This document shows, piece after piece, positions 42,715 through 49,336 of a stretch of 64,000 nt of DNA (positions are counted from its first letter, which is position 1; every line of letters begins with the position of its first letter). The notes under the pieces were generated by a model that was given only the letters and a program-made list of their open reading frames with translations, had not been told where the DNA came from and made no database searches. Position numbers and translations under genes: made by a program. The stretch comes from a virus. The stretch lies in the IMG/VR virus record IMGVR_UViG_3300042566_001780, positions 227,688-291,687 of that record; one strand, 5' to 3'.

Positions 42715-42967
42715 TTGCCTGCATATTCTTCAGGTTGGCAGATCTTTTGTGGCACTCAAAGATAGTGCTTCTGCAAATCGCTATATAGACCATTATGGAC
42801 TGTCAAAACAAGCAGTCCATCTTGGATGCAAAGAAGTCCATCAATCCTACATTGACATTTTTGAAAAGTGTAAAGTTGATAGAATTGGCTTTGAGCATCT
42901 AGGTCTTTTGCTGCAACCCTCATTTACACCGTTTTTCAAACATGTCCCAACAACCAAAAGTAACTGA
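42701..42967 (+). CDS. Small phage protein, 88 aa
   Basis: The product from ATG 42701 (MSQPNCLHILQVGRSFVALK) has several Cys and His but no recognised family. It overlaps the topoisomerase gene start by 26 bases, so it may help its translation. Confidence 0.5.
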   Translation: MSQPNCLHILQVGRSFVALKDSASANRYIDHYGLSKQAVHLGCKEVHQSYIDIFEKCKVDRIGFEHLGLLLQPSFTPFFKHVPTTKSN

Positions 42968-44714
42968 CTACGCCGTTCTTGATGAGATTGAACACGTACG
43001 CCGTCGTACTGGCATGTACGCGGGTTCTACTGAACTGCAAACAGCTTCGGACTGGATTTATGATCCTAATCTAAAGAAGATGGTCAAGAAGCAGGTGAGT
43101 TACATTCCTGCTCTTATCAAAATTTTCTCAGAAATTCTCGATAATGCAATCGATGAACACCGTCGTGCTCCAAACGTGCTTGATGCTATTCGGGTAGATT
43201 TCACTGCAGAAGGCATTATCACAATCACTGATAATGGTCGCGGTATTCCAGTTGAAGTCCATCCGCAAACTGGAAAATATATTGCAGAAACTGTGTTCAC
43301 GACGCTGCGTGCAGGTTCTAACTTTGACGATACAAAAGATCAACAACTTGTTGGCACCAATGGCGTTGGTAGTACACTGACATCTATCTTGTCTACCATG
43401 TTTCGCATCGAATCATGTGATGGCAAGAAGGTGTACACGCAAGAATTTAGAAATGGTCTTCGGGAGCGTGATGAACCGAAGATCAAATCTGACAACAAGA
43501 ATCGTACGAAAATTACATTCAAGCCAGATTACGAATTCTTCAAGTTGAAAGGTTTGGACGCCGATCATGCAATGAAGATGACCAAGAAGATTGCAGATGC
43601 CGCTGCATGTAACCCGGGTGTAAAGTTCTACATTAACGGTGATCGAATTGCTGTTAAGGATTTTGGTGACTACATTTCACTATACACTGATGAGTTTGTG
43701 TATGACGATACTCCTGATTGGAAGGTTGGCATCTCTCATTCTGATGGATTTGAGCAAATTAGCTTTGTCAACTCGGTTGAAACATACCAAGGTGGTACAC
43801 ATGTAGCATACGTAATGGATCAAATTGTTGAAGCCATTCGAGCATATATCAAGAAAAAACATAAGGTAGAAGTAAAGCCTGCTGACATCCGCAATCATAT
43901 GCGGGTGTATATTAGTGCCAACGTGAATCGGCCTAAGTTTTCTTCTCAAACAAAAGAGAATATGATTTCTCAATATGGAACTTACAAGACTTCTTGGGAA
44001 GTTCCTGATAAGATGATTCAGAAGCTGCTGAAGTCGCCAATTATTCAATCTGTGCTTGATTGGGTAGAAGCGAAGCAGAAAGCTGCAGAACTTGCAGAAT
44101 TGCGTAAACTCAACAAAGAAGCGGCAAAAGCAAATCCGCGTCGAGTTGAAAAGTTTGATGACGCCATTGAAAAAGTCAATAGGCACCAGTGCCAGATTTT
44201 TTTTACGGAGGGGGACTGCCTTTTTGAGGACACTTTGATTTATTCTCAAGGCAATGGGAATATTAAAATTAAAGATTTGCAAATAGGTGATTTTGTCCTA
44301 ACTCACCAAAACAATTTCAAACAAATAGTTAACAAAACTACTAAGTTAAAAGAGTGTATAAAATTTTGTCTGGAGGATAATAAAATTTTAATTTGTTCAA
44401 AAGAACATAAAATGTTATGTTATTCTAGAAATGACAAATGTTTTGGCTGGGCAACAGCTGAATACATAGCAAATAATCTAGATTCTTTCTATTTGGTAGA
44501 AAATGAGATAATTTCCAAAAGATGCATGGGGGACGAGCTAATAAGTAAGAACCTCCATGATAACGAATTTATTTTAGAATTTGGCAGTGGCCAAACATGG
44601 GAATCTTCACCCAACCACAGGTGGATGGTTTATCAATTAAAAACAAATAGTTTTGTAGTAGTGTCTACAGAAGATATGGAACTTGGCGATATGTTGTTAA
44701 TGAGTATGTCATAA
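42942..44714 (+). CDS. DNA topoisomerase II large subunit, N-part fused to split-intein N-half
   Basis: The 590-aa product has the GHKL ATPase (E64, N68 in FSEILDNAIDE; DNGRGIP at 97-103; GTNGVG at 138-143), the transducer domain, and stops being topoisomerase at residue 425 in FFTEGD. This is the first half of the TOPRIM EGDSA motif. C426 then opens an intein (CLFEDTLIYS, IKIKDLQIGDFVLTH as block A; ILICSKEHKMLCY as block B). The remaining 165 residues are all intein-like. The enzyme corresponds to T4 gp39. Trans-splicing with the product of 45888-46331 would restore EGDSA. Confidence 0.9.
   Translation: MSQQPKVTDYAVLDEIEHVRRRTGMYAGSTELQTASDWIYDPNLKKMVKKQVSYIPALIKIFSEILDNAIDEHRRAPNVLDAIRVDFTAEGIITITDNGRGIPVEVHPQTGKYIAETVFTTLRAGSNFDDTKDQQLVGTNGVGSTLTSILSTMFRIESCDGKKVYTQEFRNGLRERDEPKIKSDNKNRTKITFKPDYEFFKLKGLDADHAMKMTKKIADAAACNPGVKFYINGDRIAVKDFGDYISLYTDEFVYDDTPDWKVGISHSDGFEQISFVNSVETYQGGTHVAYVMDQIVEAIRAYIKKKHKVEVKPADIRNHMRVYISANVNRPKFSSQTKENMISQYGTYKTSWEVPDKMIQKLLKSPIIQSVLDWVEAKQKAAELAELRKLNKEAAKANPRRVEKFDDAIEKVNRHQCQIFFTEGDCLFEDTLIYSQGNGNIKIKDLQIGDFVLTHQNNFKQIVNKTTKLKECIKFCLEDNKILICSKEHKMLCYSRNDKCFGWATAEYIANNLDSFYLVENEIISKRCMGDELISKNLHDNEFILEFGSGQTWESSPNHRWMVYQLKTNSFVVVSTEDMELGDMLLMSMS
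44217..44711 (+). other. Split intein N-fragment (IntN)
   Basis: Codons 426-590 of the large-subunit N-part. C426 is the splice nucleophile and follows EGD. Block A (IKDLQIGDFVL) and a block-B-like KEHKMLCYSR are present; a second block-B-like SSPNHRWMVY lies near the end. At 165 residues it is longer than most known IntN pieces, so it may keep remnants of a linker domain. Confidence 0.85.
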
Positions 44715-44722
44715 AAATAGCG

Positions 44723-44779
44723 CATTTTTTGTCTCCTTCTATAAATATGAATATATTTTACTGAAGGAGACAAAAAATG
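44723..44779 (+). promoter_or_regulatory. RBS-masking hairpin with late promoter in loop
   Basis: Perfect 17-base arms CATTTTTTGTCTCCTTC (44723-44739) and GAAGGAGACAAAAAATG (44763-44779) enclose a 23-base loop. The right arm holds the GGAG ribosome site and the ATG of the endonuclease gene. The loop starts with TATAAATA (44740-44747), the T4 late promoter core. Read-through RNA would hide the start; RNA begun in the loop would expose it, as known for the T4 I-TevI gene. Confidence 0.85.
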
Positions 44780-45886
44780 TCCATGAAACATAACTTTACT
44801 TTTATTGATACCGATCTTCAAAATCCAATTAATTTTGGAATTAATGAAATTACCCAAAAGAATTTAAACAAATCTATATCTTCCAAGTTTAAAAGAATTC
44901 TTAAAAAAGACTTTATTGATTTTCTATTAGCAAAAGTACCTATAGATAAAAAAATATTTTGCAATTGGTGCGGGCGGCCAAATGTAACATGTAAAGGCAT
45001 TTATGGTATAGATTTTTCTAATATGACAGTATCTCTTATGGATATTGAATACTCCAAAAAGTTACACTGTTGTTATGGAACCACAGAATGTCAAAGTAAA
45101 AAATTAAACCCTAATTCTATAGAATTTGTTTCTAAATCAAGAAATTTGTCATTAGAAGAGGCGCGCGAATACATTCTGAATAGAAATAAATCTCCATTCT
45201 ACAGCAGAAATCATAAAACTTTAGATGATTACAAAAAATATCAAGGATCTAGATGCTTTTCAGATGATGTAGAAAGAAATAAAGAGATAATTAATAAACA
45301 AAATTTTTCAAGAAGTTTAGATGGATTTAAGGAAAAATATGGTCCTATTGAAGGACAACAAAAATATGATCTATATCAATCCAAAAAAGCCATAACTTTA
45401 GAAAATCTTATTAAAAAGTATGATGATCCAAAAGTTGCAGAAGAAAAACTTTTATCTTGGAAAAGATCAACATCTTTGACATTGGAAAATTGTATTAGAA
45501 GACATGGACCAGTAGAAGGGCCTAAGTACTATAAAAAATCCGTTGAAAATGGCGGGCTATATAGTACAATAACTTTTGCATATGACGGGTCTGCGTTAAG
45601 GAGTAATAATGAAAGAAAGTTTTATGAATTACTGCTAGTTGCAGGTATCCCTAAAGAAGAAATATTGATAGATAATTGCTATCCAGAAAGTGCATTGCGA
45701 TATGATTTTTTTATAAAATGCTTAGGCATTTTTATAGAGATAGCTGGTATGAATGATGATCAATATAACGAGAAAATGATTCTAAAAAATAAAATATTCA
45801 ATGCATGGATAGTAAGACCGTTAGAGATTGATAAAGCAGCAACTAAAATAATAGAGTATTACAATTTTTTAAAAGAAGAGAAATGA
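44777..45886 (+). CDS. Putative homing endonuclease between split-intein halves
   Basis: The 369-aa protein has N-terminal cysteines (FCNWCGRP, KLHCCYGTTEC) that may bind zinc, two to three YGPIEGQQKY/HGPVEGPKYY repeats probably contacting DNA, and a C-terminal nuclease-like core with ESALRYDFFIKCLGIFIEIAG, a PD-(D/E)xK or Vsr-like strand pattern (D then E). It is free-standing and sits between the intein halves, the arrangement known as a fractured gene. Its AT-rich codon use differs from the flanking topoisomerase. Translation is controlled by the hairpin at 44723. Confidence 0.7.
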   Translation: MSMKHNFTFIDTDLQNPINFGINEITQKNLNKSISSKFKRILKKDFIDFLLAKVPIDKKIFCNWCGRPNVTCKGIYGIDFSNMTVSLMDIEYSKKLHCCYGTTECQSKKLNPNSIEFVSKSRNLSLEEAREYILNRNKSPFYSRNHKTLDDYKKYQGSRCFSDDVERNKEIINKQNFSRSLDGFKEKYGPIEGQQKYDLYQSKKAITLENLIKKYDDPKVAEEKLLSWKRSTSLTLENCIRRHGPVEGPKYYKKSVENGGLYSTITFAYDGSALRSNNERKFYELLLVAGIPKEEILIDNCYPESALRYDFFIKCLGIFIEIAGMNDDQYNEKMILKNKIFNAWIVRPLEIDKAATKIIEYYNFLKEEK

Positions 45887-45887
45887 T

Positions 45888-46040
45888 ATGTTTGAGAAAC
45901 TTCTGGATGATTTTGAAACTATTGGGAAAAGATTGGTCAAAATTAATGCTGTAGACTTTGCAGGTCTTGCCAATACAGTTGATATTGAGGTTGAAGATGA
46001 TAATTCATTTACCCTATCAAACGGCCTCATTTCTCATAAT
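45888..46040 (+). other. Split intein C-fragment (IntC)
   Basis: Codons 1-51: block F-like VDIEVEDDNSF and the terminal ISHN with penultimate His50 and N51, followed by Ser as first extein residue. It has the size and motifs of known phage IntC pieces (about 35-50 aa). Confidence 0.85.
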
Positions 46041-46331
46041 TCTGCCCGCTCTTCCATTCAGGCTGCTCGCGGTAAAAACAAGTTTATTGGATCTTTTTCT
46101 CTTCGGGGCAAGCCGCTTAATGTATATGATGCCGAAATTAAGGATGTGATTGCAAATGCTGAATTTGCAAACATGCTTGCTGTTACAGGATTGCAACTTG
46201 GAGAAAAAGTTGAAGCTGAGTCTGATGGAAATTGGCACATCATTGAAATTGACGGTAAAGACGTATTGGTTAATGAAAATGATTTTATTAACATTAACGG
46301 TGATCTTATTAAGGTTAAAAATTTGATCTAG
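45888..46331 (+). CDS. Split-intein C-half fused to topoisomerase TOPRIM middle part
   Basis: The 147-aa product starts with a 51-residue IntC: VDIEVEDDNSFTLSNGLI (block F) and SHN (block G, N51). S52 is the +1 residue, and the extein continues SARSSIQAARGKNKFIGSFS, LRGKPLNV and NMLAVTGLQLGEKV as in T4 gp39 and GyrB. Joining to EGD of the N-part gives EGDSA. The last 37 residues (GNWHIIEIDGKDVLVNENDF onward) have no place in a continuous topoisomerase and may be a tail gained when the second cassette split the gene. No promoter seen. Confidence 0.85.
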   Translation: MFEKLLDDFETIGKRLVKINAVDFAGLANTVDIEVEDDNSFTLSNGLISHNSARSSIQAARGKNKFIGSFSLRGKPLNVYDAEIKDVIANAEFANMLAVTGLQLGEKVEAESDGNWHIIEIDGKDVLVNENDFININGDLIKVKNLI

Positions 46332-46346
46332 ACTTTGACGGTTATT

Positions 46347-46354
46347 GCTAAATA
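46347..46354 (+). promoter_or_regulatory. Late-type promoter (GCTAAATA) for second endonuclease gene
   Basis: ATTGCTAAATACATTTTTG lies 19 bases before ATG 46374 and just after the stop of the IntC-topoisomerase piece; an AAAGGA ribosome site follows. Confidence 0.6.
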
Positions 46355-46373
46355 CATTTTTGAAAGGATAAAA

Positions 46374-47423
46374 ATGAAATGTACTTTATGCAATAATGAA
46401 ATACCAAGCATCTATAAAAATAGAATTGCATGTTGTATTAGTCCGTGTGAGTCATTTTTCATAAAACCAAGAACAATATTATGGAAAATAAAAGTATTGG
46501 GCTTCAATGAACAAAAAGTCCTAGATGAAAACCGTAAAAGAACGCAAAAAGCTGGAAATACGAGAAAATCATTGGGGCTTTCTAAAGGTGCAAATAATCC
46601 AAATAGCAAACAATATTTGTTAAATCTAGGTAAGAGTGAAGATGAAATAGCACAATTTCATAAATCTACTGCCAAAAAAATGGTGGATACAAAAATAAAA
46701 GATGACTTTTATAAGGTAAAATCTAATAATCCATATTCTTATGAATACTGGATATCTCGCGGATATTCAAATGAAGAAGCTAAAAATAAAATAAGATCTA
46801 AAAATCATAATTGTGCCGAATACTGGATATCTCGCGGATATTCAAATGAAGAAGCTAAAAAACTAAGTTCAGAAAGTGCTGATACTAATTCATTAAAAGC
46901 AAAAATCAAAAGACATAAAAATGAAGGTCATAAAAAATATATGGAAACAAAAAATAAAATGTCTGGTAGTTGGAATCCAAAATCTGCAAATAGTGTTAGT
47001 TTTTCATCTTCACAATCAGCAAATGCCTTTTTTAAGAAAATATATAAATTTGTTAGGCGGTTGGGTTTCACTAGACATGAGATGACGTTTAAATTAAATT
47101 TCGGTAAAGAATTTTGGATTAAAAAAGATAAAAAAATTTATTTTTATGATTTTGTTTTGCACCCCCTAAGATTGATAGTAGAATTCAACGGCGAACATGT
47201 TCATGTTGATCCTGGTTTATCTTTAGAAGAAAAATTAAAATGGAAACACGCGTTTTCTAAAATGGATGCTTTTAGTATTGAAGAATATGATAAGCAAAAA
47301 AATATAGCAGCTGCTGCTAGAGGGTATAAAATAATTTATGTCTGGTATAAAGATCAGGAATCTGGATTTAATTCTATTGTTGATTTTTTAAAGGAAAAAT
47401 ATAATCATGGTACAAAAGATTAA
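46374..47423 (+). CDS. Vsr-like homing endonuclease
   Basis: The 349-aa protein has an N-terminal Cys motif (MKCTLCNNEI), two copies of EYWISRGYSNEEAK (a repeat typical of phage homing endonucleases), and a C-terminal nuclease core with KIYFYDFVLHPLRLIVEFNG followed by EHVHVDP. The D...EFNGxxxH pattern is that of the Vsr-related (EDxHD-type) homing endonucleases. ATG 46374 is chosen over a longer frame because of the late promoter and AAAGGA. Its 3' end overlaps the third topoisomerase piece by 17 bases, just as an endonuclease gene abuts gene 60 in T4. Confidence 0.8.
   Translation: MKCTLCNNEIPSIYKNRIACCISPCESFFIKPRTILWKIKVLGFNEQKVLDENRKRTQKAGNTRKSLGLSKGANNPNSKQYLLNLGKSEDEIAQFHKSTAKKMVDTKIKDDFYKVKSNNPYSYEYWISRGYSNEEAKNKIRSKNHNCAEYWISRGYSNEEAKKLSSESADTNSLKAKIKRHKNEGHKKYMETKNKMSGSWNPKSANSVSFSSSQSANAFFKKIYKFVRRLGFTRHEMTFKLNFGKEFWIKKDKKIYFYDFVLHPLRLIVEFNGEHVHVDPGLSLEEKLKWKHAFSKMDAFSIEEYDKQKNIAAAARGYKIIYVWYKDQESGFNSIVDFLKEKYNHGTKD
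46743..46861 (+). repeat. 44-bp exact direct repeat inside endonuclease gene
   Basis: Identical 44-base segments at 46743-46786 and 46818-46861, 75 bases apart, encode the two EYWISRGYSNEEAK units. Exact identity at DNA level points to a recent in-frame duplication. Confidence 0.85.
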
Positions 47424-47990
47424 AGTTAAAGCAAAAAATGTTAAGCCAACTCCCGATCAACTGCGAACTTATGTTCAGCAACAAGGACGTTTGACGACTC
47501 GAAATACGAATTTGCGTTTTGGTAAACTGATTGTGCTATCAGACCAAGACCTTGATGGATAGCTTCGGCTATCCATATTACATACACATTTAAAGAGTTA
47601 TTTGGATTTCATGTTTCTTCACTGCTGCTTTCCTTTTGGGCGAAGTACTGGCCAGAGTTGTTCAAACTCGGCATGGTATATCGGATGAACACTCCGCTTT
47701 ATATTGTCAAAACCAATAAGGGCGAACTTTTAGAATTCTTCACTGAAGAAGATTATGAGCGCTGGGCAGCAAAGGGTATCAAACATAAAGCTGACTATTA
47801 CAAAGGTCTTGGCGGTTTTGATACGGAAACTTTTGAGCGATTTATTGAGAATCTTGATAAGTATCTTGTTAAAATTACAGAGCTTGAAGCCCAAGACCTT
47901 GCAAAAATTGAGCTAGCTTTCTCTAACAAAGAGCAAGATGCTCGCAAAGAGTGGCTTGAGGATATTCGATACTTTGAAATTGAAGATTGA
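47407..47990 (+). CDS. Topoisomerase II large subunit C-part, read through a ribosomal bypass
   Basis: ATG 47407 encodes 51 residues ending NLRFGKLIVLSDQDLDG at GGA 47557-47559, followed at once by TAG. The required continuation of TOPRIM, FHVSSLLLSFWAKYWPELF, starts at 47607 after a 47-base gap, in a different frame. Together they give 178 aa (T4 gp60 is 160). The gap has the T4 gene 60 hop signals (see separate entry). The DxDxDG metal site is complete, so only bypassing yields an active subunit. The start follows AAAGGA and overlaps the endonuclease gene. Confidence 0.9.
47557..47606 (+). other. Translational bypass element, T4 gene 60 type
   Basis: Take-off GGA (47557-47559), stop TAG, hairpin GGATAGC-TTCG-GCTATCC (7-bp stem with UUCG loop, 47557-47574), an internal GAG (47594-47596) and landing GGA (47604-47606). 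Translation resumes at TTT 47607. The gap after take-off is 47 bases; in T4 it is 50, with the same take-off, stop, UUCG hairpin, GAG and landing signals. Upstream codons encode a basic nascent peptide (QKIKVKAKNVK), also as in T4. Confidence 0.9.
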
Positions 47991-47995
47991 AAATT

Positions 47996-49336
47996 ATGCT
48001 AAAAACAGAATCAACTGCAACAGAATTTATTGACGAAAAGCTTCGTCTTTACTCTGCTCACTCCAACATTCGAGGTATACCATTTATTGGAGACGGCTTC
48101 AAACAAGCTCACCGAAAGGCTGTTTGGGGTATGCTTAAACGTGGTGAAAATGCCGACAAAGATACTATTGAAAGAATTTCCGCAAGGTCCGCCAGTGACA
48201 CAAACTACGCGCATGGCGTAGGCTCACTTGAAGGCACAATGGTTGGACTGGCGCAGGATTATGCTGGCAGCAACAATATTCCATTGTTTGAAAAGTTTGG
48301 TCAATTTGGTGATCGTCTCAACAAAAAGCCTGCAGCCTCTCGCTACATTAAAGCAAAGCTTGCACCTTACTTTCGTCAGCTTTTCCGCAAAGAAGATGAT
48401 CTCATTTTCGAGTTCATGACTTCAAATGGAATGGAAGTTGAGCCAAAATACTTTACTCCTCTTTTGCCACTTGTTCTGGTAAACGGAGCTGAAGGTATGG
48501 GTACAGGTCATAGCACCTATATTATGGCCTATAATCCAGAAGAGATTAAAACCAACATCATTAAGCTGCTTGATGGCAAGAAACTTAAACCCAACACAAT
48601 GCTTCCATGGTGGAAGGGGTTTAATGGTTCTGTTAGCCGTAATCCAGAAACTAGTCAACTTGAAATTACAGGTTGTTACAACATTAAGGATGGGCGTACA
48701 CCAATTTTGACTGTTACTGAGCTTCCTATCGGCATCCAAAGTGATCAATACAAAGCTCATTTGGACAAGCTTGAAGATCGTGGAATTATTCTCAGTTACG
48801 ATAATCTTTCTGACAAGCGCGGTTTTGAATTCGTTATTCGGATTCCAAAATCCACTGCAGAAAAAACTGATGAAGAAATTAAAAAGCTCTTCAAACTGGC
48901 ATCAAAAGAAACAGAGAACTTGACTGTTTGGGATGGTGATGGTGTCCTTAAACGGTATGAAAATGTCGAGTCACTTCTTGAAGAATGGGTTGAATGGCGT
49001 GTTGCGCGATTTGAGGATCGTCGCCAAGCTCTAATGAAAAAGACCAAAGAAGACATTCTTTGGGCAAGTGAAAAATACAAGTTCATTATTTTCTATCTGA
49101 AGAATGTCAACTTCTTCCGTGATAATGAAACTAAAGTAATTGTTGAGAGGCTTCAAACTGAAGGTTTTACCCGCATTGAAGATCTTCTAAGCATGCCAAT
49201 GCGATCACTCACTAAGCAAAAGATTGAAGAACTCAAGAATGAAGTTGAAAAACTGAAAGTCATTTTGAATGATCTTGAAAATGACAATGCAACTTCAATG
49301 TTTAAACGAGATCTCAAAGAGTTGAAAATAGCATGA
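47996..49336 (+). CDS. DNA topoisomerase II medium subunit (gp52-like)
   Basis: The 446-aa protein matches the DNA-cleaving subunit of T4-type topoisomerase II and GyrA: DGFKQAHRKAVWGM, HGVGSLEGTMVGLAQDY, FGDRLNKKPAASRYIKAKLA with catalytic R116-Y117, and LPLVLVNGAEGMGTGHSTYI. It forms the DNA gate and a tyrosine-DNA link. ATG 47996 is chosen over an upstream TTG. It follows the bypassed piece by five bases and is not fragmented. Confidence 0.92.
   Translation: MLKTESTATEFIDEKLRLYSAHSNIRGIPFIGDGFKQAHRKAVWGMLKRGENADKDTIERISARSASDTNYAHGVGSLEGTMVGLAQDYAGSNNIPLFEKFGQFGDRLNKKPAASRYIKAKLAPYFRQLFRKEDDLIFEFMTSNGMEVEPKYFTPLLPLVLVNGAEGMGTGHSTYIMAYNPEEIKTNIIKLLDGKKLKPNTMLPWWKGFNGSVSRNPETSQLEITGCYNIKDGRTPILTVTELPIGIQSDQYKAHLDKLEDRGIILSYDNLSDKRGFEFVIRIPKSTAEKTDEEIKKLFKLASKETENLTVWDGDGVLKRYENVESLLEEWVEWRVARFEDRRQALMKKTKEDILWASEKYKFIIFYLKNVNFFRDNETKVIVERLQTEGFTRIEDLLSMPMRSLTKQKIEELKNEVEKLKVILNDLENDNATSMFKRDLKELKIA

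Follow-up and report, generated by a model that had tools for sequence, protein, structure and literature searches.

How can a virus make an essential enzyme, a type II topoisomerase, when the gene for its large subunit is broken in three places? Such a gene lies in the stretch of DNA analysed here, a 64,000-nucleotide window (positions 227,688 to 291,687 of IMG/VR record IMGVR_UViG_3300042566_001780) from a 292-kb uncultured virus of bacteria. All window features described below are on the plus strand, and coordinates are those of the window unless another locus is named. We consider it highly probable that the large subunit consists of pieces separated by two kinds of mobile element and rebuilt by trans-splicing, translational bypassing and assembly; the anatomy of the gene, its homology to known systems, the empty sites of its relatives and covariation all point this way. 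The initial annotation of this locus described the two halves of a split intein, and these stand, but its account of the gene left out an open reading frame (ORF) at 44777-45886, a second split at 46331-47407 and a gap at 47560-47606.

The gap in the gp60-like gene

The last part of the large subunit is encoded by a gp60-like gene in two frames. ORF1 (47407-47559) starts with a 35-residue extension that includes a nascent-peptide segment, RTYVQQQ, and continues with LRFGKLIVLSDQDLDG as far as the DxDxDG motif. There, a UAG stop codon opens a 47-nt gap (47560-47606), after which the conserved protein resumes in another frame as ORF2 (47607-47990; FHVSSLLLSFWAKYWPELF...), a TOPRIM_C region (PF16898, E 1e-18) that is the exact continuation of the protein of intact relatives. 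The joined product, DQDLDG/FHVSSLLLSFWAKYW, matches that protein with no residues gained or lost. The gap itself has a recognisable anatomy: a GGA take-off codon (47557-47559), the UAG (47560-47562), a 9-bp hairpin with a UUCG loop that holds the take-off codon (ATGGATAGC-UUCG-GCTATCCAT, 47555-47576), and a Shine-Dalgarno-like GAG (47595-47597) 6 nt before a landing GGA (47604-47606). Counting both strands, the window has only one hairpin whose arm contains a Gly or Asp codon together with a stop, compared with about 0.1 per strand in local shuffles.

The elements of this gap recur in bacteriophage T4 gene 60, which has an N-terminal extension, a GGA/UAG/UUCG hairpin/GAG/GGA gap of similar sequence and the same kind of frame change after DADHDG. 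The window differs in that its gap is 47 rather than 50 nt long, its hairpin core is shorter (UAGC-UUCG-GCUA) and RTYV takes the place of KKYK; at the protein level, identity to T4 is about 31% for gp39 and 26% for gp60. We regard the gap as a homologue of the T4 gene 60 bypass, and bypassing as predicted from this sequence homology. The ribosome on gp60 would stall at Gly-GGA before the UAG, take off, assisted by its nascent peptide and by the UUCG hairpin, slide across the gap, re-pair at the second GGA and go on with FHVSSLL.

Could ORF2 instead be translated separately? The locus would then hold an ordinary split intein only, with the rest of the TOPRIM domain made from separately translated ORFs and re-initiation in place of bypassing. 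Split enzyme genes whose products assemble non-covalently are known (T4 gp39/gp60 and Aeh1 nrdA; PMC2988022), and an in-frame TTG exists at 47658. However, a start at this codon would lose 17 conserved residues (FHVSSLLLSFWAKYWPE) and cut the TOPRIM domain just after DxDxDG, and no ATG, GTG or TTG in the ORF2 frame was found between the take-off site and 47658. ORF2 hence has no standard start codon that spares the conserved residues. Re-initiation also has to contend with a gap that is homologous to a proven bypass and in which, throughout the carriers, the codons match and the hairpin covaries, and we consider it very improbable.

A cassette shared with other phages

These carriers form a set of 11 sequences, comprising T4, Proteus phages SJ_PmiM and Pm5461, Salmonella phage S16, Escherichia phage LG358, Acinetobacter phage KARL-1, Shewanella phage Thanatos-1, and four metagenomic contigs (the window and the uncultured L121, L156 and L161). 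Among topoisomerase large subunits in IMG/VR, the best 80 of 256 profile matches were inspected. Take-off and landing codons are GGA and GGA in T4 (gap of 50 nt) and the window (47 nt), GGG and GGA in SJ_PmiM and Pm5461 (51 nt), GGG and GGG in L161 (44 nt), GGT and GGT in Thanatos-1 (52 nt), GGT and GGC in S16, LG358 and L121 (48 nt) and in L156 (49 nt), and GAT and GAC in KARL-1 (43 nt). The two codons thus share a decoding box in 11/11 sequences (GGR with GGR, GGY with GGY, GAY with GAY). Since the landing codon is not translated and yet agrees with the take-off box in every case, this is evidence for function. Among the nine distinct hairpins, 98.8% of cells are paired and four pairs have changed on both sides; the take-off codon's wobble base is itself part of the hairpin, where it forms a U-A, A-U or G-C pair. 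Each observed value is matched by no more than 2 of 500 shuffles. A Tyr occurs 28-31 residues before take-off in all carriers, whereas KKYK is not conserved. In KARL-1 (L060, 3914-4436), bypassing apparently takes place on Asp codons, one codon earlier than in other phages. When viral contigs were scanned for the pattern GGATAGC(N)TTCG(N)GCTATC, none of the 49 matches lay in a topoisomerase gene, and this approach was discarded.

The gap is one part of a larger cassette, which also accounts for the second break. Where intact relatives have QLRFGKLVVLSDQDLDGFHVSSLL or something close to it following SARSS...TGLQLGEKV, the window has a 39-residue C-terminal gp39 tail (...VNENDFININGDLIKVKNLI) and a stop codon (46212-46331), an endonuclease-like ORF and then the gp60-like ORF. 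The tail has homologues in 9/9 bypass carriers aligned, with the pattern NEND...G...V (window 46212-46328) in all carriers, and is missing from intact relatives. The ORF that follows (46374-47423, 349 residues; mechanical start TTG 46335) overlaps the start of gp60, has a Vsr/EDxHD-like motif read by eye (YDFVLHPLRLIVEFNGEHVHVDP), and is related along its length to the L161 ORF at this position (E 1.9e-27). It splits the gene where the mobA insertion separates T4 genes 39 and 60. The T4 order of 39, mobA, 60.1 and 60 (AF158101) therefore corresponds to that of the window: the same gene, both break points, a homologous gp39 tail, an endonuclease gene in between and a gp60 with extension, UAG and gap. 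The T4 relative RB6 is uninterrupted here (GEKAENLNYHNIAIMTDADHDGLGSIYP) and has neither tail, extension nor gap; likewise, tail, endonuclease gene and extension are lacking as a unit from the intact relatives of the window.

The endonuclease is the variable part of this cassette. In the Straboviridae carriers it is HNH MobA-like and mutually related; in the window and L161 it is Vsr/EDxHD-like and unrelated to MobA, and L121 and L156 have no endonuclease gene at all, indicating that the bypass outlasts endonuclease loss. We propose that the cassette, presumably spread through homing by its endonuclease, would end the first polypeptide and begin the gp60-like second. The gp39 tail and the gp60 extension may dock the two polypeptides. 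Together with the topoisomerase medium subunit (gp52-like, 47987-49336; PF00521, E 5e-80), which is unbroken, the spliced and the bypassed proteins would then assemble as in T4.

The split intein at the TOPRIM motif

The first break lies further upstream, in the TOPRIM motif EGDSA, and has the form EGD/Cys...His-Asn/SA. In the ORF at 42942-44714, the ATPase and transducer region of the large subunit (42942-44216; PF00204 and PF02518; phrog_543, E 1e-120; T4 gp39-like, 31% identity) runs up to ...CQIFFTEGD and is followed by the N-terminal intein half, IntN (44217-44711), which starts with Cys (TGC, 44217-44219; CLFEDTLIYS...) and runs for 165 residues to the stop at 44712-44714. A separate ORF at 45888-46331 starts with the 51-residue C-terminal half, IntC (45888-46040; MFEKLLDDFETIG...FTLSNGLISHN), followed by SARSS and the first half of the TOPRIM domain (46041-46211, ending TGLQLGEKV), as identified by alignment with intact relatives and T4 gp39. 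Between the two is a free-standing ORF of 369 residues, ORF 1 (44777-45886), which resembles a homing endonuclease. The EGDSAR[NS]S motif is unbroken in seven IMG/VR relatives (70-79% identity over the TOPRIM_C part), so the break is an insertion.

A split intein at EGD/SA is well supported by these sequence features. The initial annotation had placed both halves correctly, and its intein assignment of the N-part agrees with Pfam matches to Intein_splicing (E 1.7e-4) and Hint_2 (E 4.5e-4), although both are under the curated cut-offs. The comparison with known split inteins that it called for gave matches of IntN plus IntC in the PDB to the gp41-1 intein (6qaz, E 1.8e-5) and Npu DnaE (2keq, E 5e-5). 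Loci retrieved by IntN alone proved to be other intein genes. An IntN, a middle ORF and an IntC are arranged in this way, and at the identical residue, in two further phages, L074 (LR756500.1, 462 kb; EGL/C...HN/SALS) and L111 (EGD/T...HN/SAAK). Identities among the three are 42-47% for the IntCs and 20-26% for the IntNs, and relatives of ORF 1 lie between the intein halves of L074 (E 4e-22) and L111 (E 5e-18). The initial annotation contrasted the length of IntN and its second block-B-like stretch (SPNHRW) with compact phage split inteins; both observations are correct, but the long, two-module IntN is common to all three phages rather than an oddity of one. All the IntNs compared keep the first block B His, and the second module of L074 lacks its His; activity therefore probably resides in the first module, with the second resembling an added copy.

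The element is thus a fractured gene, consisting of a split intein and a free-standing endonuclease gene, of the type described by Dassa et al. (2009; as cited in PMC3229294). Other fractured genes, including the gp41-type locus L067, share the order of IntN ORF, free-standing endonuclease gene and IntC ORF. What sets the window apart is the host gene, a topoisomerase interrupted at TOPRIM EGD/SA, and the IntN of 165 residues with two block-B-like modules. The IntN of gp41-1 has about 88 residues. With this element, which the T4 gene lacks, at EGD/SA, trans-splicing would join the ATPase part to SARSS...LGEKV. The earlier suggestion that trans-splicing would restore EGDSA, so that enzyme activity depends on it, is partly supported; splicing alone would not restore the enzyme, as the second half of the TOPRIM domain is a separate polypeptide that would depend on bypassing.

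The intein could also be a degenerate relic that no longer splices, with the three pieces of the enzyme assembling without it. The second, unusual IntN module would fit such decay, as would the IntN of L111 (5155-5652), whose first residue is Thr rather than Cys, unusual for inteins. In the window, however, the splicing residues are all kept (Cys1, the block B His in SKEH, the penultimate His and terminal Asn of ISHN, and Ser+1), and residual intein between EGD and SA would break the metal-binding motif. We therefore think a relic improbable, and prefer an intein that splices.

ORF 1 retains the YDF...EIAGMN core that it shares with L111, lacks the usual H/D of EDxHD and has no Pfam match; a scan of viral contigs found no relatives of it. 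Like the second endonuclease, it would presumably act in homing. An 18-bp hairpin (44722-44780; -28.2 kcal/mol, z -8.7), with a similar counterpart in L111, covers its Shine-Dalgarno sequence and start codon. As hairpins of this type regulate T4 endonuclease genes (PMC2988022), ORF 1 is probably expressed with a delay. An Rfam search with the hairpin region (44708-44794) returned only chance microRNA matches. We also considered a T4-like late promoter in its 5' arm and loop (TATAAATA, 44740), but do not claim one, since the window shows no enrichment of the motif (3 copies vs 2.4 expected).

Several observations weigh against the reconstruction as a whole. The AlphaFold2 model of IntN (pLDDT 44) is not good enough to reveal a Hint fold and gave no usable Foldseek match; the first endonuclease also yielded low confidence and nothing usable, in both cases because there are too few relatives. 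Of the T4 nascent-peptide signal KKYK, about 30 residues before take-off, only the Tyr is kept. A stem upstream of the take-off hairpin resembles the T4 5' stem-loop in position and shape, but is no stronger than shuffled sequence (z -0.3; T4 itself, -0.6). Lastly, the record is a metagenomic contig. This last point, together with three interruptions in one gene, might suggest a decaying pseudogene or an assembly error, in which the stop codon and frame change are simply damage and no enzyme is made. Yet every coding piece is open and conserved, gp52 is intact, and the frame break has the same detailed anatomy in T4 and nine other sequences from unrelated datasets. The genome record also has no second copy of the large-subunit gene. 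We consider damage very improbable.

Other inteins were met during the survey. At the other TOPRIM metal motif (TDAD/C...HN/CDG), L108 (2630-6202) and L114 (3826-7366) have another kind of split intein, accompanied by an EDxHD-like endonuclease gene, and L113 and L132 a seemingly uninterrupted intein. In L074 (6792-9514), the gp52-like medium subunit is also fractured (HHGD/C...VVHN/SALN), with its own endonuclease ORF. Outside topoisomerase genes, a terminase large subunit (L174; G000:C1:84800-87800) has two intein-like regions, of which one resembles an atypically split intein whose C part is long; an EDxHD-like endonuclease ORF precedes the gene. A gp46/SbcC-like ORF on the minus strand (L176; G000:C1:6000-9500) begins with most of an intein, ending VSHN/TTIINALC, and a ribonucleotide reductase (L175; G000:C1:106500-110500) contains a contiguous mini-intein.

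Bypassing as a probable mobile recoding element

In the literature consulted, T4 gene 60 is the one established case in phages: a review of 2010 describes long-range bypassing as apparently unique to it (PMC3014915), and a kinetics study of 2024 mentions no cases besides T4 gene 60 and yeast mitochondria (PMC11194080). In the mitochondria of Magnusiomyces yeasts (PMC11194080, PMC5009743), compared here by description only, ribosomes likewise skip untranslated inserts, although in other genes and another translation system. A possible bypass has been reported in Streptomyces phage Hau3 (PMC5009743), and a view cited in the same paper is that the insert protected against endonuclease. In sequence records, near relatives of T4 such as HY01 carry the annotation 'putative non-coding translational bypass', while in those of S16, Pm5461 and KARL-1 gp60 is annotated as two ORFs and no bypass is mentioned. 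Earlier authors may have seen parts of the Straboviridae set. Neither the distant carriers nor the pairing of bypass and split intein was found in the literature searched, most subscription papers lying outside that search.

Programmed bypassing is very likely a mobile recoding cassette spread across distant phage lineages, rather than a T4 curiosity. Copies vary in codon box (GGR, GGY or GAY), in the length of the gap (43-52 nt), in nascent peptide and in the kind of endonuclease, which some have lost. In the window it shares one gene with a split intein, giving an enzyme that would need trans-splicing, subunit complementation and a ribosome hop. Long-range bypassing in bacteria has so far been studied on one natural example, and natural homologues with covarying parts can tell essential signals from incidental ones: KKYK is not conserved, while the take-off wobble base changes in step with the base it pairs with in the stem and with the landing codon. 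The set of homologues also opens the way to reporter tests across lineages, and intein biology gains a split intein in TOPRIM whose IntN has two modules. The codons of the TOPRIM active site appear as a hot spot, in which different mobile elements have found different ways of staying harmless.
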